DNA of 53,246 nt from an uncultured Planktomarina sp. GTDB taxonomy: Bacteria; Pseudomonadota; Alphaproteobacteria; Rhodobacterales; Rhodobacteraceae. The stretch spans positions 1 through 53,246 of the forward strand of contig CAJJBD010000019.1 of the NCBI GenBank assembly GCA_905182325.1. Reading direction: 5' to 3'. The notes beneath the pieces were generated by a model that was given only the letters and a program-made list of their open reading frames with translations, made no database searches and was not told the DNA's origin. The position numbers and the translations under genes are program-made. Below, in pieces: positions 24,934-39,848 of the stretch (the stretch's first letter is position 1; the number at the start of each line of letters is the position of its first letter).

Positions 24934-25587
24934 TTAAAGTTCATCCCAATTTTGAACTTCGCCGCGAAGTACTTGATCTTCTAATATTGCTTCTTGATGA
25001 GATATTGATTGAAGCATATTTAATATTTTTTCTGATATTTCTTTTGGCACACATACTACACCGCTCTCATCAGCGATTATCATATCCCCTGGAGAAATTT
25101 TTGCTTCTCCAATAATTATCGTTTCGTTAATAGAGCCAAAGGTAAATTCATTTCGACTTCGGCGAGGACAAACTCCAGTGGCCCACACAGGATAACCACA
25201 CTCACGAATTTCTTCAACATCGCGGCAAGTACCCCACATTATGGTTCCACATACGCCACGTTTTTGGGCAAGTTTAGATGCAAGCCCCCCCCACGCAGAA
25301 GCAGTTTTAGTACCACCAAGATCCATTACCACTACTTGACCTGATGACATTGTTTTTAAAACTTGTTCTAGTGGTTTCCCAACACCACCACCAAATCTCC
25401 AAGCCTCTGGATCAGCTGATTTTTCTGTAAATCTAACAGGCATAGCCTTACCTACTATTCGACCTTGGCCATAACGCTGAGCGCTCACACCCGATATGAC
25501 TCCATTTATACCTATTTCATCAAGAGCATCAGATATTGCTGCTGTCGGATATTGCGAAAATTGGGCCTCTGTTGATAAATTTTCCAT
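24934..25587 (-). CDS. RraA-like protein (HMG/CHA aldolase superfamily)
   Basis: A 217-aa protein of the RraA/class II pyruvate-aldolase-like superfamily (4-hydroxy-4-methyl-2-oxoglutarate/4-carboxy-4-hydroxy-2-oxoadipate aldolases). The catalytic Arg-Asp pair is visible as Arg122-Asp123 in WGTCRDVEEI. An acidic residue normally precedes the LLA-like helix, but here the sequence reads WGGLASKLA (Gly101), so the active site is atypical. I choose the ATG at 25587 with AGGAG upstream over 25617. It lies 13 bp after the first enolase-superfamily gene and is co-transcribed with it, so a role in cleaving or processing a 2-keto-3-deoxy acid is plausible but unproven. Confidence 0.82.
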   Translation of the reverse strand: MENLSTEAQFSQYPTAAISDALDEIGINGVISGVSAQRYGQGRIVGKAMPVRFTEKSADPEAWRFGGGVGKPLEQVLKTMSSGQVVVMDLGGTKTASAWGGLASKLAQKRGVCGTIMWGTCRDVEEIRECGYPVWATGVCPRRSRNEFTFGSINETIIIGEAKISPGDMIIADESGVVCVPKEISEKILNMLQSISHQEAILEDQVLRGEVQNWDEL

Positions 25588-25600
25588 ACAATTTTTACTC

Positions 25601-26770
25601 CTACTTAAAACTTTCAAATGATATTTGATGTTTTCTAATAAAGTCCCAATCGTATTTCACACCCATTCCTGGACCATTGGGTACCGAAACATTTCCATCT
25701 TTATCAATACAATCAAGACCATCCCTGTATTCATCAGCATAAATATTCATACACCGCCCTATTTCAGGAGTTTTTGGGTGAACTAGAGACATTTCATAAA
25801 AATTACTATTTCTGATTGCAGACATCAATTGGCGGTGTGCTGGATGTGGACCATGGATTTCAACGTCAAGACCAAAACCTTCAGAAGCATGGGCAATCTT
25901 AAATGCGCCTGTGATACCACCATCATATTCTGCATCAGCTCGAACAAAATCAGTTCCCTCAGCAACAATAAAGTTCACGTGCTCCTCAAGCCCCCGAACA
26001 TGTTCTGTTTGTAATAGAGGTGTTCTAAATCTTTGGCGCAACATTTTATGCGCAGTGGTTGAAACCCCTGAGTCCCTATATGCATCCTCCAACCACAAAT
26101 ATTGTGCATCATCACATGCTTGCCCTATTGCAAGAACTTCAGCGAACGTTCTTAATTTGCACGCAGGATCGATCATTAAAGGAAAATCGTCTCCAACAGC
26201 ATATCTTACTTGAGAAATAGTGTTTGTAAGTTCAGAAATTGAATAATCTTCCCAGATATGAATTTTATAGCCTTTATAACCCATTTCCTTGCATTGAATG
26301 GCGAAAGCAGCAAAAGCTTCAGGGCTATCTAGCCCCCCAGCTCTATCACCAGACATGGTTGATGCATATGTGGGAAGTCTAGTTCTATAGCCGCCAAGCA
26401 ACTCCCCAACCGAGCATCCATAGAGTTTACCCGCAAGGTCCCAAAGTGGAATGTCGATCATTCCAATGCCCATTTTATCAAACTTTCGCAAACACCGTTT
26501 TGCATCATTGTAAATAAGTTCACGTTGAAGAGGGTCTTTTCCAATAACATGATCTACAAATTTTTTCAGTTGTGAAAAACCTACAGCATCTCCTCCGACA
26601 AACTCACCAGTAATTCCCTGATTAGTATGTATTTGAACAGAAAATGCTTTAACCGTCTTTTCTCCACCCGGTTCATAAATCAAACTGAACCCACTTGGAT
26701 CCAGTCCTAAATCAGGGAGCTTAAAAGCAGACAACCCAACGTCAACAGATGTAATTTTAAGTTCCGACAT
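25601..26770 (-). CDS. Mandelate racemase/enolase-superfamily enzyme, copy 1
   Basis: A 389-aa enolase-superfamily protein: an N-terminal capping domain (residues 1-130) and a modified TIM barrel. Residues of the mandelate-racemase subgroup can be placed: Lys169-x-His171 (GYKIHIW) where KxK is common, metal ligands Asp201 (MIDPACK), Glu228 (LWLEDA) and Glu256 (LQTEHVRG), Asp279 (RADAEYDGG) and His306 (EIHGPHPAHR). Such enzymes dehydrate or epimerise sugar acids. It has operator site A 33 bp upstream, is followed by the RraA-like gene, and is a clear paralogue of the enzyme at 34093-35265. The exact substrate is unknown. Confidence 0.88.
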   Translation of the reverse strand: MSELKITSVDVGLSAFKLPDLGLDPSGFSLIYEPGGEKTVKAFSVQIHTNQGITGEFVGGDAVGFSQLKKFVDHVIGKDPLQRELIYNDAKRCLRKFDKMGIGMIDIPLWDLAGKLYGCSVGELLGGYRTRLPTYASTMSGDRAGGLDSPEAFAAFAIQCKEMGYKGYKIHIWEDYSISELTNTISQVRYAVGDDFPLMIDPACKLRTFAEVLAIGQACDDAQYLWLEDAYRDSGVSTTAHKMLRQRFRTPLLQTEHVRGLEEHVNFIVAEGTDFVRADAEYDGGITGAFKIAHASEGFGLDVEIHGPHPAHRQLMSAIRNSNFYEMSLVHPKTPEIGRCMNIYADEYRDGLDCIDKDGNVSVPNGPGMGVKYDWDFIRKHQISFESFK

Positions 26771-26803
26771 TTTGATCTCAGACTTCCCCCTATTCTAAAA
26801 TAA

Positions 26804-26824
26804 ATCTGCATGTAACATGTAAAT
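26804..26824. promoter_or_regulatory. Operator site A (shared palindrome)
   Basis: The right half ACATGTAAAT is exact and the left half ATCTGCATGT has two changes from ATTTACATGT. One central base separates them. It lies 33 bp upstream of enolase-superfamily copy 1, next to a TAGAAT -10-like element (26792-26797, minus strand). The core ATGT-A-ACAT fits the GT-N-AC spacing of GntR-family operators. Confidence 0.7.
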
Positions 26825-26953
26825 AGTCAACACGTAAAAAAGGTTGTGAACTTAAAAATTGGAGAAAACCGCTACTTTTAGGACGAAATGTTCAATAATT
26901 TAGAGCCCCATTTTCTCAAATAAGTTATTCAATAATAAATAGTTGACTCTATG

Positions 26954-26970
26954 TAAGATTTAAAATCTTA
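26954..26970. promoter_or_regulatory. Palindrome next to operator site B
   Basis: TAAGATTT, a central A, then AAATCTTA form a perfect 17-bp palindrome that abuts the extended site B. It is unlike the shared operator and may be a second regulator's site or part of the promoter. Confidence 0.35.
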
Positions 26971-26973
26971 TTA

Positions 26974-26994
26974 ATTTACATGTAATATGTAAAT
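26974..26994. promoter_or_regulatory. Operator site B (shared palindrome)
   Basis: ATTTACATGT, central A, then ATATGTAAAT: one change from a perfect 21-bp inverted repeat. With flanking TTA/TAA the symmetry extends to 27 bp (26971-26997). It lies 42 bp upstream of the sugar-binding-protein start. TAATAT within it (26983-26988) could be the -10, so a bound protein would block transcription. Confidence 0.75.
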
Positions 26995-27036
26995 TAATAC
27001 TTACTATTTCTAATTTGTTAATTAAGGGAGGAAGAC

Positions 27037-28311
27037 ATGTTTATTAAAAATATAGTATCAAAAGTGCTAGTGGGCTCTGTGCTCTTGGGACAAGCTGGAA
27101 TTGTTTATGCAGATAATATAAAAGTGTCCGGCTGGCATCAGCTTTTTGATTTTTCTAAGCCTGCTATTTTGATGGCTGAAAAAAAATATGAAGCAAAAAA
27201 TGCGGGTACAGACCTAATAATGGTCGATACTGCTTTTGGACAGGCTTTACAGCAAGCGACTGTATCGACAATAGCAGGCAACCCGTCCGACGTAATTCAA
27301 CTTGTTGCCGGTTGGGTTCCAGCAATGGCTGAAATTGGTGGCTTGAGGGCATTAGACAATTTATTCACCCAAGAAGAAATTAATTCAATTCCCAAGACTT
27401 CGCGAGACGCACTTACGTGGGAAGGTGAGCTTGTGGCCGTTCCATGGAATCCAGGCCCCATTTTAATGCACTATAATAGAAATTTGATGAAAGAGGCCGG
27501 ACTTGATCCAGATAGTCCACCTGCGACGTGGCCAGAATTAAAAGAAGCAATAATGGCTATCTGTAAATTGCCTGAGCGCAATGGTGGATCAGTGTATGGG
27601 ATTGCCTTACGTACGTCACAAAACCCAAACTCAGCGCAGTGGAGCATTCCAATTGTCTATGGTCATGGTGGCGATATACAAGTTGATAATGTACCCGCAG
27701 TTAACAATGAAAGCGTGAGTGATGCTTTGAATTGGATCGCTGAGATCGTAAATTCAAATTGTAGCCCAGTTGGTTTTGGCTTTGCTGAGACAAGAACTCT
27801 ATTTGCTCAAGAGCGTGCAGGGTTTATTTTTGAGGGCCCCTGGGGGCGTGGTTTGGTTAAAAACATGTCTGATGGTAAATTAACTGTGGAGCCAAAAGGA
27901 GATGTTTGGGTAGCCCAGATGCCAGCAGCGCCTGATGGTACCGTAAAAACTATCGGTAACCCCATTGTGGCAACTGTATCCTCGAAGTCAAAAAATCCAG
28001 AACTTGCAGTCGATTTCCTCAGAACTGTTCTTTTCGATAAAGAAATCACAGATGAATTTTTTACGTCATCAGGATTACTTCCGTCTAGCAGTATGGATAT
28101 TCTTGGGTCAGGCCTTGTTGGCGCTGATGCATACGCTCAGTTGTTTGTTGACGCGTTACCATTCACTTATGATACACCAATCAAGAGCTCCAAATTCAAC
28201 ATGATCCTTGGAGAGTTAGCCATTGGCATGCAAGAAGTTATCAGTGGTGCAAATTCAAATGATGTTCTCACTAAGGTTGATGAAAAGATTAAATCAAAAT
28301 TAAAGAGATAA
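27037..28311 (+). CDS. ABC transporter extracellular sugar-binding protein (family 1)
   Basis: A 424-aa periplasmic solute-binding protein of the carbohydrate-uptake type 1 group. It has a signal peptide (basic MFIKNIVSK, hydrophobic LVGSVLLGQAG, cleavage after Ala25 in VYA-DN). ALTWEGELVAVPWNPGPILMHYNRNLMKEAGL is typical in part, as is FIFEGPWGRG. It captures the substrate for the two permeases downstream. The start ATG has a GGGAGGAAG site. Operator site B lies upstream and a strong terminator directly after, so it can be made in excess over the ATPase and permeases. Confidence 0.92.
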   Translation: MFIKNIVSKVLVGSVLLGQAGIVYADNIKVSGWHQLFDFSKPAILMAEKKYEAKNAGTDLIMVDTAFGQALQQATVSTIAGNPSDVIQLVAGWVPAMAEIGGLRALDNLFTQEEINSIPKTSRDALTWEGELVAVPWNPGPILMHYNRNLMKEAGLDPDSPPATWPELKEAIMAICKLPERNGGSVYGIALRTSQNPNSAQWSIPIVYGHGGDIQVDNVPAVNNESVSDALNWIAEIVNSNCSPVGFGFAETRTLFAQERAGFIFEGPWGRGLVKNMSDGKLTVEPKGDVWVAQMPAAPDGTVKTIGNPIVATVSSKSKNPELAVDFLRTVLFDKEITDEFFTSSGLLPSSSMDILGSGLVGADAYAQLFVDALPFTYDTPIKSSKFNMILGELAIGMQEVISGANSNDVLTKVDEKIKSKLKR

Positions 28312-28333
28312 GATCAGTATCGATTGAATTAAC

Positions 28334-28374
28334 GTGACATCCGCTGACCTAGCGGATGTCACATTTTATTTTTG
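28334..28374 (+). terminator. Strong terminator between binding-protein and ATPase genes
   Basis: A perfect 12-bp stem (GTGACATCCGCT with AGCGGATGTCAC) with loop GACCT is followed by ATTTTATTTTT. Partial read-through here would give the usual excess of binding protein over membrane components. Confidence 0.92.
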
Positions 28375-28401
28375 TCTATTAGTTGGAATACAGGAAATTA
28401 A

Positions 28402-29484
28402 TTGTCTTACGTGGAACTTAATAATATTGGAAAATCATTTGACCGCGTTGAGGTCTTAAAAAAGATTAATCTAAGCATAAAAAAAGATGAGTTTTGTGTT
28501 TTAATTGGTCCATCTGGCTGTGGAAAATCAACGCTGCTAAGAATTATTGCTGGATTGGAAAGCCCTTCATCTGGAAGCTTAAGTCTCAACAATAAAGATG
28601 TTACGGAGTTACGCCCAAGGGATAGAAATATTGCTATGGTGTTTCAAAATTACGCTTTGTATCCGCATCTAACGGTTCGAGGTAATATGGAGTTTGGTTT
28701 AAAACTAGATAAAACTCCTAAAGCTAAGATAAATGACCTCGTAAACGAAGCAGCGGCAATTTTAAAACTTGAACCGTATTTAACCCGCTATCCAAAGCAA
28801 CTCTCCGGTGGGCAGCGCCAAAGAGTGGCAATGGGACGCGCCATAGTAAGAAACCCATCCTTATTTTTATTTGATGAGCCTTTATCAAATCTTGATGCCA
28901 AACTTAGAACGAAAATGCGAACTGAAATTAAAAGTCTCCATTTTCGGCTAAAAAGTACAACAGTTTATGTCACGCATGATCAAATTGAAGCTATGACAAT
29001 GGCTGATAAAATAGTCGTAATGAATGAAGGAGAAATAATTCAAGTAGGAACCCCTCTTGAGTTGTTTGATAATCCAAAGAACTTGTTTGTGGCATCTTTT
29101 CTGGGATCTCCAGAAATTAATCTTTTTGAGGGAACTGTTAAAAAATCCAGTGATGGCTATTTTCTAAAACTTGATGGAACGTCAGATTTAAATCTTCCCC
29201 AAGACCTAAACTTTAATGAAGATCAAAAAATAATAGTGGGAATAAGACCACAGTCTTTAAAAGTTTCTTCAAAAAGTACAAAATTGAAATCGGTGGTAAA
29301 TATTATTGAAAATACTGGCACCAGTACGTTTATCTTTTCAACGGTTGGTTCAAGCAATGTGTGCTCAGAAGTGGATAGGAACCTAAATTTCAAAGTTGGA
29401 GATGATATCTTTTTATCGGCTGAGCCAAATAAAATGCTAATTTTTAATCCTGAAACGGGTGAACGATTAATCAATGAAATATGA
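28402..29484 (+). CDS. Carbohydrate ABC transporter ATP-binding protein (UgpC/MsmK type)
   Basis: A 360-aa ATPase powering the sugar importer at the cytoplasmic face. Walker A is GPSGCGKST (residues 36-44), the Q-loop is [14 protein letters not shown], the signature is LSGGQRQR, Walker B is [14 protein letters not shown] and the switch His is in [11 protein letters not shown]-terminal TOBE/OB-fold regulatory domain follows (about 240-360). The start is a TTG at 28402 with AGGAA upstream. No ATG in frame would keep the first strand ([12 protein letters not shown]). The gene comes after the terminator at 28334-28374 and is closely followed by permease 1. Confidence 0.93.
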
Positions 29485-29487
29485 TGG

Positions 29488-30369
29488 GTGCCAATGTATT
29501 CTTTAAAACAAAATAAACTTTTGCTTTTAGGTTTATGCCTGCCTGCAACCCTGATTGTAGCAATCTTTATCATTTTTCCGATAGCTAACGGCGTATATAT
29601 GAGTTTTACTGACGCATCGCCCTTACGGCCAACTTCGAAATTTGTAGGTTTTGAAAATTATCGATACTTGTTTGCAGATGATGTCTATTGGCAAGTCTTG
29701 GGCAACACCATTTTTATTATAGGGTTTGCCACGATTTTGGCGATGTTGATATCAGTTTGTCTTGCATTATTGCTGAATAATACTATTCGGTTTTCCGGAT
29801 TATATCGATCACTGATTTTTCAAACTTGGGTTGTACCTTGGATAGTTATAGCAATACTTTGGGGATGGATTTTCAATACCGATTATGGATTGGTTAATGG
29901 GACTTTGGCTCAGTATGGGTTAATAGAGTCTCAAATAGATTGGCTATTTAATGGTAAGTACGCTCAGTGGGCAATAATTTTATGTTTTGCCTGGAGATCA
30001 ATCCCCTTTTTGATGGTAATAATGTTAGCCGCCCTTCAGGGCGTACCTGGCGAAGTGTTAGATGCTGCTGAGGTAGACGGAGCTAAGTACTGGCAAAAAA
30101 CATTCAAAGTTACTTTACCATTGATACAGAACATATCGTTAGCAGCGGCCTTAATGCAGGCAGTCCGAATGTTTCAGGAAATGACGCTTCCTTTTGTGTT
30201 GACAGAGGGAGGGCCAATGAATGCTACTATGGTTTTAAGTATGTATTCATACAATCTCGCATTTGACTCCTGGGACTTCGCACTTGCTGCCACGGTTGGT
30301 AGCTTATGGTTGGTAATGTTAGTACTGTTTGGTGCTATTTATCTTAAAACCGTGGTTCGAGAGATGTAG
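29488..30369 (+). CDS. Carbohydrate ABC transporter permease (MalF/UgpA type)
   Basis: A 293-aa inner-membrane permease with six hydrophobic segments. The cytoplasmic coupling motif is visible as DAAEVDGAKYWQKTFKVTLP. MALF-type features include FVGFENYRYLF in the periplasmic loop. The start is uncertain: GTG 29488 or ATG 29494, both just after the ATPase stop at 29484. It pairs with the next gene to form the channel. Confidence 0.92.
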   Translation: MPMYSLKQNKLLLLGLCLPATLIVAIFIIFPIANGVYMSFTDASPLRPTSKFVGFENYRYLFADDVYWQVLGNTIFIIGFATILAMLISVCLALLLNNTIRFSGLYRSLIFQTWVVPWIVIAILWGWIFNTDYGLVNGTLAQYGLIESQIDWLFNGKYAQWAIILCFAWRSIPFLMVIMLAALQGVPGEVLDAAEVDGAKYWQKTFKVTLPLIQNISLAAALMQAVRMFQEMTLPFVLTEGGPMNATMVLSMYSYNLAFDSWDFALAATVGSLWLVMLVLFGAIYLKTVVREM

Positions 30370-30383
30370 AGAGAAATCAAATA

Positions 30384-31235
30384 ATGAAGTTCAGTTTTTC
30401 AAAATTGGTTAGGGGTTACATTATCCCATACGGCCTCCAAGCATCTGCTCTTGCATCCACGGCAATTCTCATATCGCCAATTGTTTGGATGGTATCAACA
30501 TCTCTTAAAAAAGAGTCTGAAGTTTTTGATCGCCCGCCGGTATGGATACCATCTGAAATTTCATTTGATAGTTATTTTAGAATAATGAACAGTTTTGTAG
30601 CAAACATATTGTATAATAGCATTCTGGTTGCTTTGCTTGCCGCAATCATTGCGACGGTAATTGGAGCGATGACGGCTTATGCACTGTCAAGGTTTGCAAT
30701 TCCTGGCAAGTCTACGATAATGCTTTTTTTCTTAAGCTCTTTAGCGTTTCCGATTCCATTGCTTATGATGTCAATGTATATTCTTTTAATGAAAATGGGA
30801 CTGCTAGATACCTTATTATCGATGATCATAGGCCATACCGTTATTACTTTGCCAATTACAGTCTGGTTAATGAAAAATTTCATTGATCAAATACCAAAGG
30901 AAATAGAGGAAGCAGCTTATGTTGAAGGGGCGAGTTTTTTACGGATAATATTCTTTATAGTATTTCCTCTTTCTATGCCAGCTTTGACAGCTTCCGCTCT
31001 ATTTGTATTTGTAACCTCCTGGAATGAATTGTTTTTTGGCCTTTCTTTTATATCTTCGCCTGATTTAAGGACCGTACCTGTCGGTATTAGCCAATCATTT
31101 CTTCAGGAATTTAAAACTGACTGGACGGGAATGATGTCTTTGGCGGTTATAGTAACCATACCAATAGGAATTATTTTTGTATTTTTACAAAAATCATTCC
31201 TACGTGGAATGATTGCAGGCTCTGTCAAAGGATAA
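30384..31235 (+). CDS. Carbohydrate ABC transporter permease (MalG/UgpE type)
   Basis: A 283-aa inner-membrane permease with six hydrophobic segments. The coupling motif is EEAAYVEGASFLRIIFFIVF (with Glu in place of the usual Asp in DGA). SWNELFFGLSFI near the C-terminus is typical of the MalG group. It starts 14 bp after permease 1, with AGAGAAA upstream. Together with the binding protein, ATPase and partner permease it completes a CUT1 importer. Confidence 0.92.
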   Translation: MKFSFSKLVRGYIIPYGLQASALASTAILISPIVWMVSTSLKKESEVFDRPPVWIPSEISFDSYFRIMNSFVANILYNSILVALLAAIIATVIGAMTAYALSRFAIPGKSTIMLFFLSSLAFPIPLLMMSMYILLMKMGLLDTLLSMIIGHTVITLPITVWLMKNFIDQIPKEIEEAAYVEGASFLRIIFFIVFPLSMPALTASALFVFVTSWNELFFGLSFISSPDLRTVPVGISQSFLQEFKTDWTGMMSLAVIVTIPIGIIFVFLQKSFLRGMIAGSVKG

Positions 31236-31280
31236 TGCAATTAATTCATCACCTTTTTTTGGAATATAGGAAGGCTAATT

Positions 31281-32159
31281 ATGATAAAAATCAAACATCT
31301 CAATTTGCCACCTAACAATCATGGCGAAGGTTTAATTTGGATAGAGAAGACTAATGAGCTTGCTTGGGTTGATGTCTTTGAAGATCCTAAAATTAGAATT
31401 CTGAACTTAGACAATAACAAACACACAACCATCTCAGTTCCAGGACCTATAACAAGTATAGCCCCACACGAGAGTGGTGGATTTGTAGCAGGAATGAATG
31501 GAGGTTTTTATCTAATAACTTATAATAAAGATCCAGTGCATCTGGTTTCTCCAAAAAAAATGCATGCGAATGAACTGCTAAACGATGGGAGGTGCGATTC
31601 TAGAGGCAGGTATTTATGTGGGTCGATGGACATCGGGATGAAGGACGAAATAGGAAAAATTTATCAGCGAAATAGTGACGGTGAAGTAAAAATTGTTGAT
31701 GAAAATTTTATTGTTGGAAATGGCATAGCTTTTTCACCCAGAGAAGATATCGTTTATATATCAGACAGTCGAAAAGACATTATCTGGAAATATGACTATA
31801 ATATAAATAATGGAGCTATTTCTAATAAAAGGTTGTTCTTCTCCACTGCTGATGTACTGGGTAGACCCGACGGCGCGGCTATAGATAGTAATGGAAATTA
31901 TTGGTCTTGTCTTTTTGAAGGTAAAAAAATTATCTGCATCGATCATGTAACTGCTAAAGTCTCTGTAGAAATACCACTACCGGTCACGTACCCCACAATG
32001 TGTACCTTTGGGGGTCTGAAACTTGATCGTCTTTATGTAACCACATCGAAAAGACTATTGACTGAACTGAAGTTTAAGAAGCAACCATTGGCTGGAAAGA
32101 TTTTAGAAATTAAAAATCTTGGAGTTGTCGGGTTTAACTCAGCAAAATACGCAGCATAA
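31281..32159 (+). CDS. SMP-30/gluconolactonase-family sugar lactonase
   Basis: A 292-aa six-bladed beta-propeller of the SMP-30/regucalcin/LRE family. The metal-binding Glu is Glu16 (GEGLIW). Later ligand regions are NDGRCDSRGRYLCGSM, VGNGIAFSPRED and LGRPDGAAIDSNGNYW. These enzymes open sugar lactones to aldonic acids. In Caulobacter the xylonolactonase XylC belongs to this family. Here it follows the importer genes and precedes a GntR regulator, fitting an oxidative sugar route with the XylB-like SDR at 35293-36063. Confidence 0.9.
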   Translation: MIKIKHLNLPPNNHGEGLIWIEKTNELAWVDVFEDPKIRILNLDNNKHTTISVPGPITSIAPHESGGFVAGMNGGFYLITYNKDPVHLVSPKKMHANELLNDGRCDSRGRYLCGSMDIGMKDEIGKIYQRNSDGEVKIVDENFIVGNGIAFSPREDIVYISDSRKDIIWKYDYNINNGAISNKRLFFSTADVLGRPDGAAIDSNGNYWSCLFEGKKIICIDHVTAKVSVEIPLPVTYPTMCTFGGLKLDRLYVTTSKRLLTELKFKKQPLAGKILEIKNLGVVGFNSAKYAA

Positions 32160-32214
32160 TTCGAAATTATATTTTAAATACGGCAATATTAAAACGGTAG
32201 AAGCAAATATATCC

Positions 32215-32877
32215 ATGGCAAATATATTAAATATATCAAAAAAACATACGCTGCGAATTAGTGATAGTGTCTACGACACTATAAAGTCAGCAATCATAAC
32301 CCATGACCTCCCACCTGGATATCACCTAAGCGTCCCAGCTTTAGCTCGGCAAATGGGTGTTAGCAGAAGTCCAATTCGAGAATCTGTCCAGAAGTTGATT
32401 TCTGAAGGTTTAGCATATGAAAAACCAAGGCAAGGAGCGTATGTAAGCAAGTTTGAGACGAAAGACCTTTTGCCAGCCTTTCAGGTTCGACTTGTCTTAG
32501 ATGGTCTTGCAGCTAAATTATCAGCTAAAAATTTGTCTAAAAAACTTATTCTTAAACTTGATCGAATAATGTCAGCACATCGCGAGTCGATAAATAATAA
32601 TGATCCTGATAAATATACAAGTGCAGATATTCAATTTCATATGGCTTTACTTGATAACTCCAATAATCCTCTGTTAAGGGAGATGGCTCAATCAGTTTAT
32701 TATCAGATATATGCTGCAATGAAAACGCGGGCAGCCCCCTTAGGTCCTGAAGTTACCTATCGTGATCACACAGTAATTTATAACGCTGTTATCAATGGAA
32801 AAGAACAAGAATCAGAAACGGCAGCTCGCGACCATGTTGAACATATAATTTCGCGAGTTTTAGAAATTTCAGAATAA
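32215..32877 (+). CDS. GntR-family regulator with FCD domain (FadR subfamily)
   Basis: A 220-aa regulator: an N-terminal winged helix (SVYDTIKSAIITHDLPPGYH, then SRSPIRESVQKLISEGL) and a C-terminal all-helical FCD ligand domain (LPAFQVRLVLDGLAAKL, AARDHVEHIISRVLE). The metal-binding-type residues Asp/His of FCD proteins are suggested by DIQFHMALLDNSNNPLL. I choose the ATG at 32215. A longer frame from 32119 overlaps the lactonase gene and adds non-family residues. It is the most likely protein to bind the four ATGT-A-ACAT operators in this cluster. The inducer is probably the sugar acid or a keto-deoxy intermediate. Confidence 0.9.
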   Translation: MANILNISKKHTLRISDSVYDTIKSAIITHDLPPGYHLSVPALARQMGVSRSPIRESVQKLISEGLAYEKPRQGAYVSKFETKDLLPAFQVRLVLDGLAAKLSAKNLSKKLILKLDRIMSAHRESINNNDPDKYTSADIQFHMALLDNSNNPLLREMAQSVYYQIYAAMKTRAAPLGPEVTYRDHTVIYNAVINGKEQESETAARDHVEHIISRVLEISE

Positions 32878-32945
32878 AATTAGTCATAGCGAGTACACAA
32901 TATGCCAAAAGCTAGCTGTTAGTTTTTTCACTTGGACGAATATTT

Positions 32946-33944
32946 ATGGGGTGTTTACAAAAAGAATTGGGATTAAAGGTTGGTATAGCCAACAGGGGTA
33001 TTGTTCATCACAACACAGAGCAAGCTGTACCCTTAGACGATTGGTTCCGGATAGTTTCTGAAACGAATAGCTTTGATTATGTTGACAAAACACCACTAGA
33101 AGAAGAAATTAATCTATATCGTAAATGCAGCGAAAAATACGACCTTCCCATTTTGTGTGGAGGGTGGTTTTATACTATTGGAGCTGACGAACATCTTTTA
33201 TTCAAACATCTGGAAAATGCAGTTAGCCTTGGAACAAAGTTTCATAATGTTCAAATTAAAGCCAAACACGTAGATGGATACGACGCTACTAACGAACAAA
33301 TAGTTGATATTTATCTGCGTGCATCTGAGTACGGCGATCGCTTGGGGTGTCAGCCCTGTTTTGAAATACATATAAATATGTGGTCAGAAGATTTCCTGAG
33401 AATTTTCGAAGTTGCGGAAGAGATTGAAAAAAGAGGCGTCCCATTTAGGATGACGCTTGATCACTCTCATATCATTTTCAAAATGGATAATGATTTTGAG
33501 ATGAATTTGTTTAATTTATCTCAAAACATTCAAAATGGTAGCTTAATACTTGACCCTTACATTAAGGGGAATGTCGCACAAAGACTGATTGATAAAAATT
33601 ATGTTAATATGTTGCATGCTAGAAGCGTTATACCAAATAATCCAAAAAATATCATGGCATCTCATCCCGACGGAAGCGTTGGAAGAGGAGTTCAATATCC
33701 TTTTGTAAAACCTTTGAAGGGCCAATTTCCCAGTGCATGGGATGAAACCAAGTTAGAGCCTTGGAAAGAGGTTGTTCGCCAGGTGTTAAATTACCATTGT
33801 AAAGTAGAGAGCTCACCTTTGAAATTCATTTCAACAGAATTCATTCCTGCTACTGATTATGGTGAAGGCAACACATATTCTCTCCTCTGCAATTCTATAG
33901 CTTGCGCAAAGTGGATTAAAAGTGAAATTACGCTTAGATCTTAA
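32946..33944 (+). CDS. Xylose-isomerase-like TIM barrel protein
   Basis: A 332-aa protein of the sugar-phosphate isomerase/epimerase (AP endonuclease 2-like) superfamily, placed by pattern only. Likely metal ligands are Glu140 (CFEIHIN), Asp172 and His173/His175 (TLDHSHII), a His in NMLHARS, and a late Glu in ISTEFIPA. The fold fits an isomerase, epimerase or dehydratase on sugar-like substrates. It is not close to any named enzyme I know. It follows the GntR gene by 68 bp and precedes the second enolase-superfamily gene. It may add an epimerase step or act on a keto-sugar. Confidence 0.68.
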   Translation: MGCLQKELGLKVGIANRGIVHHNTEQAVPLDDWFRIVSETNSFDYVDKTPLEEEINLYRKCSEKYDLPILCGGWFYTIGADEHLLFKHLENAVSLGTKFHNVQIKAKHVDGYDATNEQIVDIYLRASEYGDRLGCQPCFEIHINMWSEDFLRIFEVAEEIEKRGVPFRMTLDHSHIIFKMDNDFEMNLFNLSQNIQNGSLILDPYIKGNVAQRLIDKNYVNMLHARSVIPNNPKNIMASHPDGSVGRGVQYPFVKPLKGQFPSAWDETKLEPWKEVVRQVLNYHCKVESSPLKFISTEFIPATDYGEGNTYSLLCNSIACAKWIKSEITLRS

Positions 33945-34014
33945 ATTATTTTTAATAATATTGACTTTTTAATATCAGATTGTTGTTGACAGCATAATAC
34001 TTGTTGCACAAAAA

Positions 34015-34035
34015 TATTACATGTAACATGTAAAT
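34015..34035. promoter_or_regulatory. Operator site C (shared palindrome)
   Basis: TATTACATGT, central A, then an exact ACATGTAAAT. It lies 57 bp upstream of enolase-superfamily copy 2. A candidate -35 (TTACAT, 34017-34022) lies inside it, 17 bp from TATTCT (34040-34045), so binding would block RNA polymerase. Confidence 0.72.
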
Positions 34036-34092
34036 TTTTTATTCTGGAATTACATAAATCAACAATAAAGTGGTTTAGAAAGGAAATATTAA

Positions 34093-35265
34093 TTGTCCGA
34101 TTTAAGAATTACATCGATCGATGCAAAAATATGTGAATTTGAAATACCAGATTTTGGAACTGATCAGAATGGTACTAGCCTAGTTTACACGCCTGGAAAT
34201 AAAAAAAAGGTTAAATCCTGTGCAATTCAGATTCATACAAATGAAGGAATTTCGGGTGAGTTTGTTGGTGGGGAACCAGTAGCGTTCGCTCAATTATGTA
34301 TGTTTGCAAATGACATGATAGGTAAGGATCCGACACAACGTGAGCTAATTTACAATAATGCTAAACGTTGTTTGAGAAAATTTGACCGGATGGGTATGGG
34401 TCTAGCAGATATACCGTTGTGGGACCTTGCTGGAAAACTTTATAATGCCCCCATATATCAACTTTTGGGTGGATGGAGAACAAAACTACCAGCATACGCA
34501 TCAACCCTTTCCGGCGATCGGTGTGGAGGCTTGGATTCACCACAGGCTTTTGCTGAGTTTGCTCTGCAATGTAAGGACATGGGCTACACTGGATATAAAT
34601 TACATATTTGGGATGATTACTCACTGCGTGAACTTCGTGATACAATAGAAAGTGTTCGTACTGCTGTTGGCGATGAGATGCACTTGATGATAGACCCAGC
34701 TTGTAAATTACGCACGTTCTCAGACGCATTGGAATTGGGCTGGGCTTGTGATGAAGCCAGGTTTTTATGGCTTGAAGATCCTTACCTCGATAATGGTACC
34801 GCAACAACGTCTCATAAAATGCTTAGAAGTCGGCTGAAAACACCACTTTTACAGACGGAACATATTAGAGGTTTGGAAGAGCATGTGAATTTCGTCGTAG
34901 CGGAGGGAACTGATTTTTTAAGGGCTGATGCCGAATATGATGGCGGCATAACTGGAGCATTGAAAATAGCTCATGCAGCTGAGGGTTTTGGGCTTGATTG
35001 CGAGTTACATTGTGGAGGGCCAGCTCACCGACAATTAATGGCATCTTTAAGAAATTCAAATTTTTATGAAATAGGTTTAGTACATCCTAAAACTACTGAA
35101 ATTGGTTGGAGCATGGATGTATATTCCTGTGGATACAGGGACTCATTGGATGTGATTGATGAAAATGGAAATGTAGATGTTCCAGATGGTCCTGGGCTTG
35201 GTGTTGTCTATGATTGGGATTTTATTAACCGTAATGTAATTCACGCTGTCAAATTTGGAAATTAA
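34093..35265 (+). CDS. Mandelate racemase/enolase-superfamily enzyme, copy 2
   Basis: A 390-aa paralogue of the enzyme at 25601-26770, colinear along its whole length. Lys169-x-His171 (GYKLHIW), Asp201 (MIDPACK), Glu228 (LWLEDP), Glu256 (LQTEHIRG), Asp279 (RADAEYDGG) and His306 (ELHCGGPAHR) align. The loop after His306 differs: copy 1 has GPHP, copy 2 has CGGP, so His309 is missing. The start is a TTG at 34093 with AGGAA upstream, supported by alignment to the ATG-started paralogue. Site C controls it, and it is followed by the SDR gene. It is probably a sugar-acid dehydratase with different specificity from copy 1. Confidence 0.88.
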   Translation: MSDLRITSIDAKICEFEIPDFGTDQNGTSLVYTPGNKKKVKSCAIQIHTNEGISGEFVGGEPVAFAQLCMFANDMIGKDPTQRELIYNNAKRCLRKFDRMGMGLADIPLWDLAGKLYNAPIYQLLGGWRTKLPAYASTLSGDRCGGLDSPQAFAEFALQCKDMGYTGYKLHIWDDYSLRELRDTIESVRTAVGDEMHLMIDPACKLRTFSDALELGWACDEARFLWLEDPYLDNGTATTSHKMLRSRLKTPLLQTEHIRGLEEHVNFVVAEGTDFLRADAEYDGGITGALKIAHAAEGFGLDCELHCGGPAHRQLMASLRNSNFYEIGLVHPKTTEIGWSMDVYSCGYRDSLDVIDENGNVDVPDGPGLGVVYDWDFINRNVIHAVKFGN

Positions 35266-35292
35266 ATGAAAAACTGCAATATATGAGCATCA

Positions 35293-36063
35293 ATGAATAC
35301 TAACTATGCCACCTATCCAAGTTTACGAGATCGCGTCGTTTTGATTACCGGTGGAGCTGCAGGCATTGGTGCGGCGATGGTGGAGGCGTTTCACGCTCAA
35401 GGTGCAAAAGTAGCATTTTTAGATATTGATGAACAGTCAGCCATTTTTTTAAAGGAAAGTTTATCAAAGAGTAAATGGCCAGAACCATATTTTTTGAAAT
35501 GTGATGTTCGTAATATAGAAACACTGCAAAAGTGTATAAGTAATGTTTCGAAGCAGGTAGGTAAAATCCATACTCTTATTAACAATGCTGGAGGCACTGA
35601 AAGGCTTTCAGCAAATGAAATTACATTAGATAAGTGGGAAAACTTTCAATCACTTAACTTAAGGCATGTATTGTTTGCGAGCCAAGCAGTGTTTCCAGAT
35701 ATGTGTGAAATTGGTGGAGGTTCAATCATTAACTTTACGTCCCCAACATTTAGAAGGAGAACCAAGGGCTGGGCGGGTTACGCTGCGGCTAAATCAGGAA
35801 TAGAGGGCTTGTCAAGAATTTTGGCTAGAGAGTATGGCGAAGCCAGCATTAGAGTAAACTCAATCATGCCAGGCTGGACCGCCACCGAACACCATAAAAA
35901 ACATTTTCTTACCCCTGAAGTTGAGGCTGATCTTATGAGTGTTCAGTGCCTAAAACAACTTGTATTGCCAGAAGACATCGCGCGCATCGCCATGTTTTTA
36001 TCGTCAGATGACAGTCAATTTATGACGGCTCAAGTATATAAGGCCGATGCTGGTTTGGTTTGA
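35293..36063 (+). CDS. SDR-family dehydrogenase, XylB (sugar 1-dehydrogenase)-like
   Basis: A 256-aa classical short-chain dehydrogenase. The cofactor motif is TGGAAGIG (residues 19-26), followed by NNAGG (97-101) and the catalytic Ser150, Tyr163 and Lys167 (YAAAK). The opening TYPSLRDRVVLITGG, the NLRHVLFASQAV segment and the ending with QCLKQLVLPEDIA resemble Caulobacter D-xylose dehydrogenase XylB as I recall it. Oxidation of an aldose to its lactone is therefore likely. It is 27 bp after enolase-superfamily copy 2 and converges on the PhyH gene with only 5 bp between stops. Confidence 0.88.
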   Translation: MNTNYATYPSLRDRVVLITGGAAGIGAAMVEAFHAQGAKVAFLDIDEQSAIFLKESLSKSKWPEPYFLKCDVRNIETLQKCISNVSKQVGKIHTLINNAGGTERLSANEITLDKWENFQSLNLRHVLFASQAVFPDMCEIGGGSIINFTSPTFRRRTKGWAGYAAAKSGIEGLSRILAREYGEASIRVNSIMPGWTATEHHKKHFLTPEVEADLMSVQCLKQLVLPEDIARIAMFLSSDDSQFMTAQVYKADAGLV

Positions 36064-36068
36064 AATTG

Positions 36069-36965
36069 CTAACTGTAAAAACTCCGCGCACCACCAGATT
36101 TTTGAGTTTTGAATATTGACCCACCAACCTTTAATGGTGGCACCGGCATCCTCACCGGCCAATTTTCAATCCGTGGCTCTTTGGTAGGCTGGCCTGAGAT
36201 AGTTCTAATGTGCAAGTCTTCCCACAGTTCACCAGAACCTAATTTCTGGATTGTCACAGCGGCCCCTCCTAGTAACGGCCAGGCATCTGCGGCATTGCAC
36301 TCATAAAATAGCATAAGACGCGCGCGGTCGCTGCGGTTTGGGGCTGAGCCGTGAAGTATTCGTCCATGATGTATGCTCATATCTCCAGCTTTTCCTGTAA
36401 TTGTTTTTATCTTGTCCTTTGCAAAATCAGGATCATCAGGGTTTATCGCTCCACAAAATAATCCCTGATCGTTGGAGTGGTCCAAGATAGGTCCTTTATG
36501 AGATTTTGGAACAACTTGTAGTGGGCCATTCTCAAGTGTTACGTCTTCCAGCATCAGCCCAACAGCAAGGACGCTGTCATTGGTTAGTGGATAAAACGCT
36601 AGGTCTTGATGCCATTCAACGGAAGAACCTCCGTCTGGCGCTTTAGTATTGAGTTTACTAGTTTGAAGTTGGATATTTTCGCCAAGTAGGCTTTTTATTA
36701 CAGATGTAATTTTTGATTGTTCAAGGATATCCCAAAAATAAGGATCCAACTTGTGCGGCAGCTTTATTCGATTAAGGCGAGGTAATTCTTTTGAATGACC
36801 TTCATCTAAATCATAAATATGATTACTTTCAGAAACTGTTCGGGACTCTTCGATCAAACGATAAGTCATCTCCTGTAATTTGGATAGTTGATCTGGAGAC
36901 ACAACGTTTTTAGCTAAAATGTAACCATCTTCATCATATTGAGTGATTTCGTCTTTAGACAGCAT
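36069..36965 (-). CDS. Phytanoyl-CoA dioxygenase (PhyH)-family protein
   Basis: A 298-aa Fe(II)/2-oxoglutarate-dependent dioxygenase. The iron-binding HxD is His119-Asp121 (VEWHQDLAF) and the distal His is His205 (ILHGSAPN). Arg214 or Arg216 fits the 2-oxoglutarate carboxylate. QVVPKSHKGP is typical of PhyH. It probably hydroxylates a small organic molecule. The substrate is unknown. It is divergent from the LacI gene, with a LacI-like operator 53 bp upstream. Its location within the sugar cluster suggests it modifies the incoming compound. Confidence 0.87.
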   Translation of the reverse strand: MLSKDEITQYDEDGYILAKNVVSPDQLSKLQEMTYRLIEESRTVSESNHIYDLDEGHSKELPRLNRIKLPHKLDPYFWDILEQSKITSVIKSLLGENIQLQTSKLNTKAPDGGSSVEWHQDLAFYPLTNDSVLAVGLMLEDVTLENGPLQVVPKSHKGPILDHSNDQGLFCGAINPDDPDFAKDKIKTITGKAGDMSIHHGRILHGSAPNRSDRARLMLFYECNAADAWPLLGGAAVTIQKLGSGELWEDLHIRTISGQPTKEPRIENWPVRMPVPPLKVGGSIFKTQKSGGARSFYS

Positions 36966-37018
36966 TATATTTATCCCCTTAAATTAAAATAACTTTTTTT
37001 ATTTATTAAAGATACGCT

Positions 37019-37036
37019 AATGGTATCGGTACCATT
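37019..37036. promoter_or_regulatory. LacI-type operator between PhyH and LacI genes
   Basis: AATGGTATCGGTACCATT is a near-perfect palindrome with a central CG, the form expected for LacI/GalR regulators (TGGTA-n-CG-n-TACCA). It sits between the two divergent genes and probably binds the LacI protein encoded next to it. Confidence 0.72.
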
Positions 37037-37120
37037 TTTAGAAAATTGCTTTCAATAAGTCAACATTATACATAATTTGTAATTAATTAATGTTACATAA
37101 TCTGCTTGGAGTTAATTATC

Positions 37121-38143
37121 ATGCCACGACCTATAGATGAACGTTGGTCGACCATGAAGGAAGTGGCTAACTTAGCTGGTGTAGCCAAAATTACAGTATC
37201 CCGCGTGCTGAGGTCTCCTGAGCTAGTCAGTAAAACCACGCGAGAAAAGGTAGAGAGTGCTATTAATAAGTTGGGTTATGTTCCAGAGGCCGCTGCAGGT
37301 GCTCTCTCCAGTGGGCGTAGCCAAATTGTAGCAGCTAATATTTCAACATTATCTGGATCTATTTTCCTCTCCACAATCAATCAATTGTCTAACATCCTTT
37401 CCAAGCATGGGATTCAATTAATATTGTCTAATTCGGAGTATTCCGAAGAAATGGAATTTCAACAGCTGTCAGCATTGATCGCTCAGAGGCCTCTTGGGCT
37501 CGTATTGAGTAACGCTTTTCATAATACCAAAAGGCGCTCAATGCTTTCACGGATAGGTTGCAAAGTAATTGAGATTTGGGACTTACCAGAAAATCCCATA
37601 GATTATGCTGTTGGTTTTTCAAATTTTGATGCTGGCTATTCAATGACACAATTTCTTTTTAAAGATTGCTGTTACAAAAAAATTGCTTTTCTAGGAACCA
37701 AACAAGGTTTTGATCGTCGGAGTGAAATGCGTTTCCAAGGATATAAGGACTTTCAATTGAAACACACCAGCGAAGTCAGGGCGTTTGATTTGACGGCTTC
37801 TGGGAAAGGTAATATCCATGACGGCACTGTTGGTTTAAATTCTATTTTAAATAAATGGCCTGACACAGATGCAATTTTTTGCTCTGGAGATGTTCTAGCC
37901 ATCGGAGCTGTGTGTGAAGCTAGGCGTAGGGGTTTGCGTGTACCAAAAGATATCGCAATTTCTGGATTCGGAGATATCGAATTTTCTAATGAGTATGGAA
38001 TTGAGTTAACCACAGTCAAAGTTAGGGGCGAAGAAATTGGAACTCGTGTTGCTAACATAATCGTTGGAGACATTGAGGGGGCCTTCAACATAAACAAATC
38101 TATCGACGTAGGATATGATATTGTTCGACGTTCTACTACATAA
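37121..38143 (+). CDS. LacI-family transcriptional regulator
   Basis: A 340-aa LacI/GalR repressor. The helix-turn-helix and hinge are at the N-terminus (MKEVANLAGVAKITVSRVLR, residues about 12-31, then YVPEAAAGALSSGRS). A periplasmic-binding-protein-like ligand domain follows (about 65-335, with DAIFCSGDVLAIGAV). I choose the ATG at 37121, preceded by GGAG, over a TTG at 37106. The protein likely regulates itself and the divergent PhyH gene through the operator at 37019-37036. It and the GntR protein give the cluster two layers of control. Confidence 0.92.
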   Translation: MPRPIDERWSTMKEVANLAGVAKITVSRVLRSPELVSKTTREKVESAINKLGYVPEAAAGALSSGRSQIVAANISTLSGSIFLSTINQLSNILSKHGIQLILSNSEYSEEMEFQQLSALIAQRPLGLVLSNAFHNTKRRSMLSRIGCKVIEIWDLPENPIDYAVGFSNFDAGYSMTQFLFKDCCYKKIAFLGTKQGFDRRSEMRFQGYKDFQLKHTSEVRAFDLTASGKGNIHDGTVGLNSILNKWPDTDAIFCSGDVLAIGAVCEARRRGLRVPKDIAISGFGDIEFSNEYGIELTTVKVRGEEIGTRVANIIVGDIEGAFNINKSIDVGYDIVRRSTT

Positions 38144-38207
38144 ATTACTTGTTTAAGTTATTTACTGATTAAACTTCTTTAAAGACATTTTTAAACCAGA
38201 ATTAATA

Positions 38208-38254
38208 ATATTTCAATATTATTTACATGTAACATGTAAATAATATTGAAATAT
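38208..38254. promoter_or_regulatory. Operator site D inside a 47-bp perfect palindrome
   Basis: The 21-bp core (38221-38241) is an exact ATTTACATGT, A, ACATGTAAAT. Symmetry continues without a mismatch for 23 bp on each side of the central A (38231). The right arm contains the -35 of the semialdehyde dehydrogenase promoter. The left side begins 64 bp after the LacI stop, so in RNA it could also form a terminator stem. Confidence 0.85.
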
Positions 38255-38275
38255 GTATTTAAAAAAATCTATAAA
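38246..38275 (+). promoter_or_regulatory. Candidate promoter of the semialdehyde dehydrogenase gene
   Basis: TTGAAA (38246-38251), 18-nt spacer, TATAAA (38270-38275). The -35 lies in the right arm of the 47-bp palindrome, consistent with repression by the protein that binds operator site D. Confidence 0.55.
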
Positions 38276-38345
38276 AGTATTATATTGATATGGAATTAGT
38301 CTTTCTGACTTTTAACAGGCCGATGCGTTGGCAGAAGGGATTCAA

Positions 38346-39848
38346 ATGCTTTTTGGAAAAAATTTAATTGATGGTAATTGGGTTGGATCACCACAGACAG
38401 TAATTTCAGATGATCTTAATGGTTTTGAATTTGCACAGGCATCTGCTGATCAAGTCGATCAGGCTTGTAAAGCCAGTCAACAGTGTTTTCGTAACTTCAG
38501 TACAACAACAAGAAAAGTTCGTGCAGAGTTTCTCAATCAAATTGCTGATGAAATTGAAAAGTTGGGTGAGGAGATCACTCAAACGGGTGCCCAAGAGACT
38601 GGGTTGCCTGAAGCACGGCTCAATGGAGAGCGTGGGCGAACGACTGGCCAATTGCGTATGTTCGCGCAGCTAATATTAAACGATGATTATCTAGACATAC
38701 GTATCAACCAAGCTCTTCCAGATCGCCAGCCCCTGCCCAGACCAGATATTCGCTTAATCCACCGGCCGATAGGCCCCGTTGTAGTTTTTGGTGCCTCGAA
38801 CTTTCCTTTGGCCTTTTCAACGGCGGGTGGCGATACGGCGTCGGCCCTTGCAGCTGGCTGCCCCGTGATCGTGAAGGGCCATGGCGCTCATGCTGGGACA
38901 GCTGAATTAGTTGGCCAGGCAATTATGGCTGCAGTTAAAGCCTGCAAAATGCCCAAGGCAACTTTCCAACTTTTACAAGGTGCTGGACGCATTGTGGGCA
39001 GCGCTCTTGTGGAACACCCCAAAATCAAGGCTGTTGGGTTTACTGGCTCTGCGGCTGGGGGGCGGGCTTTGTATGATTTGTGCCATGCACGACATTCGCC
39101 AATTCCGTTTTATGGAGAACTAGGTTCGATCAATCCAGTCTTTTGTTTGCCAAATGCCTTAGTTGAGCGTTCTACACAAATTGGTATTGGTTGGGCGGCT
39201 TCCCTAACAATGGGGGCTGGACAGTTCTGCACCAATCCTGGAATTATTATTGGTATAAAAGGTAAAGAATTCGACAAGCTTCAAGAAGCAGCCGTCGCAC
39301 AGTTAAATGATTCTGCTGATCAAAAGATGCTCACGGAGGGAATCCAAAAAGCATATATAGCGGGTGTTGCTCACCTTAAAGATCGTATTAGTGAGTTAAC
39401 ACAGCCTAGGCAAACAGAAAAAGAACGTTACGGAATTCCTGCCGCGTTTAAAACCTCTGCAAGCGATTGGCTGTCTGACAAAACCTTGCAACATGAAGTG
39501 TTTGGCGCAGCTGGAATCTTTGTCGAATGTGATGATGAAAGTGAGATGATTGAGTTGGCAGAGCAGTTGGATGGCCAACTCACCGTAACATTACAACTTG
39601 CAAAGTCTGATATTAAACTGTCTCGAGCACTCTTACCCATCTTGGAAGAAAAGGCGGGCCGCCTGCTATGCAATGGCTTTCCAACTGGCGTAGAAGTGAG
39701 CTCCGCAATGATGCATGGGGGACCATATCCAGCAAGCACTGATGTTCGTGCGACATCAGTGGGGACATTGGGCATTGCAAGATGGCTGCGTCCTGTTGCT
39801 TATCAGGATTTTCCAAAAGAATTGTTGCATGACGAATTAAAGAAATAG
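38346..39848 (+). CDS. Alpha-ketoglutarate semialdehyde (2,5-dioxovalerate) dehydrogenase
   Basis: A 500-aa aldehyde dehydrogenase oxidising 2-oxoglutarate semialdehyde to 2-oxoglutarate with NAD(P)+. The catalytic residues are Asn152 (GASNFPLAF), Glu258 (YGELGSINP) and Cys295 (GAGQFCTNPG). GGDTASALAAGCPVIVKGH is characteristic of the KGSADH group used in Weimberg-type sugar and sugar-acid oxidation. I choose the ATG at 38346 with AGAAGGG upstream over the TTG at 38328. Operator site D and a promoter precede it. It provides the exit of the pathway into the TCA cycle. Confidence 0.93.
   Translation: MLFGKNLIDGNWVGSPQTVISDDLNGFEFAQASADQVDQACKASQQCFRNFSTTTRKVRAEFLNQIADEIEKLGEEITQTGAQETGLPEARLNGERGRTTGQLRMFAQLILNDDYLDIRINQALPDRQPLPRPDIRLIHRPIGPVVVFGASNFPLAFSTAGGDTASALAAGCPVIVKGHGAHAGTAELVGQAIMAAVKACKMPKATFQLLQGAGRIVGSALVEHPKIKAVGFTGSAAGGRALYDLCHARHSPIPFYGELGSINPVFCLPNALVERSTQIGIGWAASLTMGAGQFCTNPGIIIGIKGKEFDKLQEAAVAQLNDSADQKMLTEGIQKAYIAGVAHLKDRISELTQPRQTEKERYGIPAAFKTSASDWLSDKTLQHEVFGAAGIFVECDDESEMIELAEQLDGQLTVTLQLAKSDIKLSRALLPILEEKAGRLLCNGFPTGVEVSSAMMHGGPYPASTDVRATSVGTLGIARWLRPVAYQDFPKELLHDELKK

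Follow-up and report, generated by a model that had tools for sequence, protein, structure and literature searches.

In operators of the FadR subfamily of GntR regulators, GT and AC are mostly 2 or 3 nt apart; exceptions include NanR and BioR (PMC4494728). GntR/FadR-type regulators include DgoR, a repressor of D-galactonate (sugar-acid) metabolism (PMC12288454), as well as ExuR and UxuR; the GT-to-AC distance is 3 nt for DgoR and ExuR and 2 nt for UxuR (PMC4494728). Atu1419 of Agrobacterium fabrum (VanR group) is an FCD GntR protein with the operator ATGTATACAT, the arms of which are ATGT and ACAT; its target is described as a 10-mer, and the palindromes lie in promoter regions within a catabolic cluster, including that of its own gene (PMC7797058). 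NanR, a known exception to the FadR-subfamily consensus (PMC4494728), is a GntR-type repressor that acts on repeated hexamers in a (GGTATA)3 direct repeat (PMC8012715). Here we analyse a 53,246-nt contig stretch from an uncultured Planktomarina sp. (hereafter the window), in which four copies of an odd 21-bp palindrome, ATTTACATGT-N-ACATGTAAAT, lie within a catabolic gene cluster that encodes an FCD-type GntR regulator at 32215–32877.

The locus resembles the Atu1419 system in regulator type, palindrome arms and operator placement, but it has one base rather than two between GT and AC, its sites are conserved over 15–21 bp and the pathway is different. The same 1-nt spacing sets it apart from DgoR, ExuR and UxuR, which are regulators of the same type. 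As in NanR, hexamers appear to be repeated (here ACATGT at a 7-bp period), although hexamer sequence, symmetry and ligand differ and the binding of several dimers is conjectural in Planktomarina. The gluconate repressor GntR/IdnR is comparable to a neighbouring regulator only: the cluster also encodes a LacI protein of that type (NCBIfam, below cut-off) with an even, CG-centred palindrome upstream, but this protein is from another family, and we do not propose it as reader of the 21-mers.

Four conserved palindromic sites in a Planktomarina gene cluster

The motif is matched four times in the window at ≤3 mismatches, compared with 0.01 matches expected by chance, and four matches were reached in 0 of 100 shuffles. 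The first-pass annotation of this DNA had reported four copies at these positions and no other clear copy in the window, and both points hold. It had also placed them before both enolase-superfamily genes, the ABC binding-protein gene and a KGSADH gene; the first three placements are correct, while the KGSADH label is no firmer than plausible. A second genome of the genus (G203, taken as Planktomarina sp. isolate NAT682, NZVF01000081.1; 67% complete) carries a second copy of the cluster on its 48,188-base contig C88, where the orthologous sites were located with the 17-mer form of the motif. The four sites are:

26804–26824: operator I, 2 mismatches, before enolase-superfamily gene 1 (minus strand); orthologue G203:C88:13323-13339
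26974–26994: operator II, 1 mismatch, before the ABC transporter/lactonase/gntR operon; orthologue G203:C88:13489-13505
34015–34035: operator III, 2 mismatches, before enolase-superfamily gene 2 and a short-chain dehydrogenase (SDR) gene; orthologue G203:C88:20534-20550
38221–38241: operator IV, 0 mismatches, before the aldehyde dehydrogenase gene; orthologue G203:C88:30654-30670

With start codons taken from the mechanical open reading frame (ORF) list, the sites precede their genes by 34 bp (enolase 1), 43 bp (ABC binding protein), 58 bp (enolase 2) and 87 bp (aldehyde dehydrogenase). The general GntR form N-GT-Nx-AC-N is present as ATGT-A-ACAT in three of the four. No fifth 21-mer match at ≤3 mismatches occurs anywhere in the source genome (G000; 1,902,557 bases in 52 contigs, 78.12% complete, so that sites in the missing parts are possible). 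A fifth 17-mer match in this genome, G000:C11:7770, lies inside a 541-amino-acid ORF and was rejected as chance.

All four sites have a G203 orthologue before the same genes, and they are better conserved than their surroundings. Between the two genomes, 78 of 84 bases of the 21-mers and 59 of 60 bases of the 15-bp cores are identical, compared with 292 of 514 in the intergenic flanks (Fisher p ~1e-11 with bases treated as independent). The odd G of site I and the odd T of site II are kept in both genomes, and site II has changed in step on both arms, from TTACATG..ATGTAA to CTACATG..ATGTAG. Operator IV forms the middle of a perfect 47-bp palindrome (38208–38254), the G203 orthologue of which has mainly the right flank in common; template switching may therefore have produced the left arm as a copy of the right.

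The motif is rare elsewhere. Exact matches to the degenerate 15-mer TRCATGTWAYATGYA are found in 2 of 20 genus genomes only (four in G000 and five in G203, all inside the cluster). The other 18 contain no exact match, with scattered 1-mismatch matches in six and matches to the reversed motif, our control in motif searches, in four; nor does any GntR match in them (E ≤ 1e-15) exceed 33% identity. Motif and GntR protein of this type thus co-occur in 2 of the 20 genomes, and the G203 GntR protein is 85% identical to that of the window. A class-level scan of 385 genomes for TTRCATGTWACATGYAA at ≤1 mismatch gave 10 places, four of them in G000 and six in five of the 384 others. These six look like chance because the reversed control yields seven places, and no significant GntR or LacI match was found within the 1.6–3.0 kb fetched around them. 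The scan of own and related genomes that the first-pass annotation had proposed therefore shows a rare motif, not one that occurs often at unrelated loci, which that annotation had named as evidence against its reading.

An FCD-type GntR protein as the probable reader

The cluster encodes two recognised regulators only, the FCD-type GntR protein and the LacI-family protein. The former has a GntR winged helix followed by an FCD domain (Pfam PF00392, 6.4e-14; PF07729, 2.2e-22; both above the gathering score). The best explanation of the four sites, which we consider highly probable, is a local regulon read by this protein. The first-pass annotation had drawn the same inference, which now finds support in (i) the co-occurrence of motif and protein within the genus, (ii) Deinococcus sites upstream of gntR relatives, (iii) a separate operator for the LacI protein and (iv) the rarity of the motif at unrelated loci.

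In a GntR search of 198 family genomes, matches outside the own genome do not exceed 32% identity. Among the plasmid matches listed, the top one is from Deinococcus psychrotolerans (35% identity), where gntR lies beside pyrimidine-degradation genes and has TTTTACATGTAACATGCTTT upstream; relatives in D. aetherius and Deinococcus sp. QL22 (30% identity to the window protein) also have the motif upstream. At ≤3 mismatches the motif occurs exactly once in each of these three whole plasmids (427,730, 577,691 and 396,185 bases), in all cases 53–85 bp before the gntR relative. Two other Deinococcus plasmids that encode FCD proteins of another type contain no motif, and the reversed control is absent from all five. 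The DNA-binding segment LSVPxLAxxxxVSRSPxRE is shared by all five motif-linked proteins. By contrast, six-frame translation shows it in 0 of 64 control FCD loci and in 0 of 8 other FCD loci examined with the Deinococcus ones, and the motif at ≤4 mismatches is likewise found in 0/64 (reversed control 2) and 0/8. The 64 controls are best-scoring matches from larger match sets (one of the searches behind them gave matches in 159 of 349 genomes); the recognition segment was readable in 56 of the 64. Residues D138, H142, H185 and H207, candidates for the Asp/Asn and three His that bind metal in FCD domains, are invariant in the five aligned proteins and map to N137/H141/H192/H214 of Atu1419 by position only. 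The location of gntR downstream of operator II and of the motif upstream of gntR in Deinococcus is as expected for autoregulation.

Several observations weigh against this assignment. The core TGT-A-ACA has a GT-to-AC spacing of 1 nt, outside the typical 2–3 nt, and in a tally of GT-Nx-AC palindromes before FCD genes (35 + 38 loci; counts rough, with minus-strand loci not reoriented) spacing 1 is not enriched before other FCD genes (0 observed vs 0.55 expected, arm 5). Site II reads ATGT-A-ATAT in both genomes, with AT replacing AC in the right half, so that just one side retains the GT/AC pair. Each Deinococcus site is a good match in a single half. A second, overlapping register (4 mismatches) is available at all three, and for QL22 the register with the fewest mismatches (2) does not line up with the other two sites. 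Their clusters also differ in function, with branched-chain-type ABC transporters at all three and pyrimidine-degradation genes at one; therefore, any inference about the ligand does not transfer. Moreover, the two genus genomes represent a single lineage, as do the three Deinococcus plasmids, so that the independent cases number two and not five. TTGACT directly adjoins site I (minus strand) and lies 25 bp upstream of site II (plus strand), and both are kept in G203, although a generic promoter scan did not call promoters there. At site III the scan found TTGACA...AAAAAT ending on the first base of the site, but this TTGACA is not kept in G203, and site IV showed no convincing promoter.

Three other explanations were considered. 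A regulator encoded elsewhere in the genome could read the sites, given that only sequences were examined and that the two genomes are 78% and 67% complete. This is very improbable: exact matches to the degenerate motif always fall inside the cluster (2/20 genus genomes), and the motif recurs in another phylum beside a GntR protein of the same type.

Slightly less probable again is that the LacI-family protein (37106–38143) binds the four sites. Its gene belongs to the cluster and lies just upstream of operator IV, and the protein resembles gluconate repressors (NCBIfam, below cut-off), but its upstream region contains a palindrome of its own, ATGGTATCGGTACCAT at 37020–37035, which G203 shares with 1 mismatch. 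Its two closest homologues in the family search (L098, 45% and L099, 42% identity, tblastn) have a perfect ATGGTATCGATACCAT upstream, and the 17-mer at ≤4 mismatches is found in 0 of 29 upstream regions of LacI homologues, scanned in the correct orientation. LacI operators are usually even with a central CG, and even palindromes are recorded for 1251 of 1303 LacI regulators (PMC4052901). The 37020–37035 palindrome has this form, whereas the 21-mer has an odd length, an A/T centre and no central CG. In addition, no LacI gene is annotated in the 8.6-kb regions around the three Deinococcus sites, although the gene tables of these plasmids are incomplete. We therefore rejected the LacI protein as reader of the 21-mers; it very probably has its own operator.

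That the palindromes are RNA hairpins or terminators rather than operators is scarcely credible: the 47-bp palindrome at site IV does score as a terminator-like stem on both strands, but the other three sites are shorter or imperfect and gave no terminator call, the Deinococcus sites retain core letters rather than full pairing, and all window sites lie 34–87 bp before start codons.

Operator spacing and a possible recognition code

The first-pass annotation had appealed to a GT-N-AC core. This agrees with the general GntR consensus but not with the spacing of mostly 2–3 nt described for the FadR subfamily (PMC4494728), and by inspection the perfect 21-mer contains no other GT..AC pair in that order. 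In our tally, spacing 3 is enriched before FCD genes (6 observed vs 0.38 expected; arm 5, 38 loci), and spacing 1 with arm 3 was observed once, at a Deinococcus site (0.57 expected). By these rough counts, a 1-nt spacing is out of the ordinary for FCD proteins as a whole. It is also outside the spacings that we found reported for the FadR subfamily. Among the papers listed in our literature searches none describes this operator, and the titles listed for a search on sequence strings include no GntR paper.

ACATGT-like hexamers at a 7-bp period may be the real recognition unit because two overlapping registers fit each of the Deinococcus sites, most clearly in D. aetherius and QL22 (CCTGTTRCATGTAACAC). 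The residues at helix-turn-helix positions 28 and 40 (numbering of PMC4494728; mapped by eye) are both Pro, in agreement with a T and not a G beside GT. We see about even chances that an FCD-GntR subgroup with LSVPxLAxxxxVSRSPxRE, found in a Planktomarina lineage and in Deinococcus, reads ACATGT hexamers at a 7-bp period (GT-N1-AC), and that this code has stayed constant between phyla while the pathway changed. If so, GT-N1-AC would imply that the dimers either sit on DNA in another arrangement or overlap.

Cluster genes, proposed control and significance

The genes and the additional palindrome of the cluster are:

24934–25617, minus strand: RraA-like aldolase-type protein (Pfam); overlaps the next gene and is in the same transcription unit by spacing
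25601–26770, minus strand: enolase-superfamily protein 1 (MR_MLE), probable sugar-acid dehydratase (Pfam; best NCBIfam models are sugar-acid dehydratases, all below cut-off)
27037–28311, plus strand: ABC transporter solute-binding protein (Pfam)
28402–29484, plus strand: ABC ATPase (Pfam)
29488–30369 and 30384–31235, plus strand: two ABC permeases (Pfam)
31281–32159, plus strand: SMP-30/gluconolactonase-like protein (Pfam)
32215–32877, plus strand: FCD-type GntR regulator (Pfam GntR + FCD), proposed to read all four operators; downstream of operator II
32946–33944, plus strand: protein of no recognised family, 332 amino acids, after gntR
34093–35265, plus strand: enolase-superfamily protein 2 (MR_MLE), probable sugar-acid dehydratase (Pfam, NCBIfam, PDB search)
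35293–36063, plus strand: SDR (Pfam)
36069–36965, minus strand: PhyH-type dioxygenase, divergent from lacI, without a 21-mer copy (Pfam)
37020–37035: even palindrome ATGGTATCGGTACCAT, proposed LacI operator
37106–38143, plus strand: LacI-family regulator, gluconate GntR/IdnR-like (Pfam; NCBIfam below cut-off)
38328–39848, plus strand: aldehyde dehydrogenase, KGSADH-like by context (Pfam)

Judged by gene spacing, operator I would serve enolase 1 and the RraA-like gene, operator II the ABC importer, lactonase, gntR and then the 32946–33944 gene, operator III enolase 2 and the SDR gene, and operator IV the aldehyde dehydrogenase gene. The gene content suggests (i) import of a sugar or sugar acid, (ii) lactone opening, (iii) dehydration by the two enolase-superfamily enzymes and (iv) semialdehyde oxidation. 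The NCBIfam dehydratase models for both enolase-superfamily proteins are all far below cut-off, as are the two best models for the aldehyde dehydrogenase, HpaE and NF042993 (alpha-ketoglutaric semialdehyde dehydrogenase). The closest solved structures to enolase-superfamily protein 2 (1rvk, 4hcd and 4mmw) are named only 'isomerase/lactonizing enzyme'. The 32946–33944 protein has no Pfam, no NCBIfam and no convincing PDB sequence match; G203 contains a similar ORF at the equivalent place.

We infer the following mode of control. A dimer of the GntR protein would bind TTRCATGT-W-AYATGYAA and repress four promoters, namely those of (i) enolase 1 and the RraA-like gene, (ii) the ABC importer, lactonase and gntR, (iii) enolase 2 and the SDR gene and (iv) the aldehyde dehydrogenase gene, with gntR autoregulated via operator II. 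Repression rather than activation is proposed because of a presumed overlap of the operators with promoters. A sugar acid or lactone-derived acid in the FCD pocket may release the protein, which would jointly induce uptake, lactone opening, dehydration and oxidation. The LacI protein would control the PhyH/lacI divergon separately, by way of ATGGTATCGGTACCAT. This kind of control, local gene control, is ordinary; the recognition sequence is unusual.

The cluster (24934–39848) has a G+C content of ~37–42%, compared with ~43–47% elsewhere in the window (4-kb windows), and its right flank in G203 consists of other genes (SelA/SelB-like, read from translations). Both features suggest a horizontally moved island. 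G203 also contains a block (C88 24660–30502), located between the genes for the LacI protein and the aldehyde dehydrogenase, that is absent at that place in the window; its genes, read from translations, are GMC-oxidoreductase-like, lactonase-like, SDR, sulfatase-like and SDR. The fifth G203 operator, at 27210, lies there between the divergent lactonase-like and SDR-like genes, with the sulfatase-like gene after the SDR-like one. One substrate in G203 could be a sulfated sugar.

We also searched for similar clusters through enolase 2. Relatives at 43–53% identity are found at 20 places in all: within the family in 3 of the 393 other genomes (E ≤ 1e-70) and within the class in 16 of the 384 others (E ≤ 1e-80). 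We examined 19 of these neighbourhoods (G535 was left out). They contain no GntR, LacI, lactonase, RraA or aldehyde dehydrogenase match at E 1e-5 and no motif at ≤3 mismatches, with a 4-mismatch match in one (L085). A PhyH match is present in seven of the 19, four of them short at 28–30% identity and three at 41–45%; in these three alphaproteobacterial neighbourhoods (L082, L083 and L088) the PhyH-type gene is close to the enolase gene. Enolase protein 2 is also 52–58% identical to proteins of the 20 listed of 1039 matching plasmid records, which by organism name are all haloarchaeal; this identity equals or exceeds that of the alphaproteobacterial relatives found outside the genus.

In brief, sequence alone has been used to pair a regulator with a DNA code, and the pairing has been checked across phyla; this provides a directly testable regulon in a marine bacterial lineage. 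If the pairing is true, the 1-nt spacing would extend the known range of FadR-subfamily operators, and two separate switches, GntR and LacI, would stand side by side in one mobile-looking catabolic cluster.

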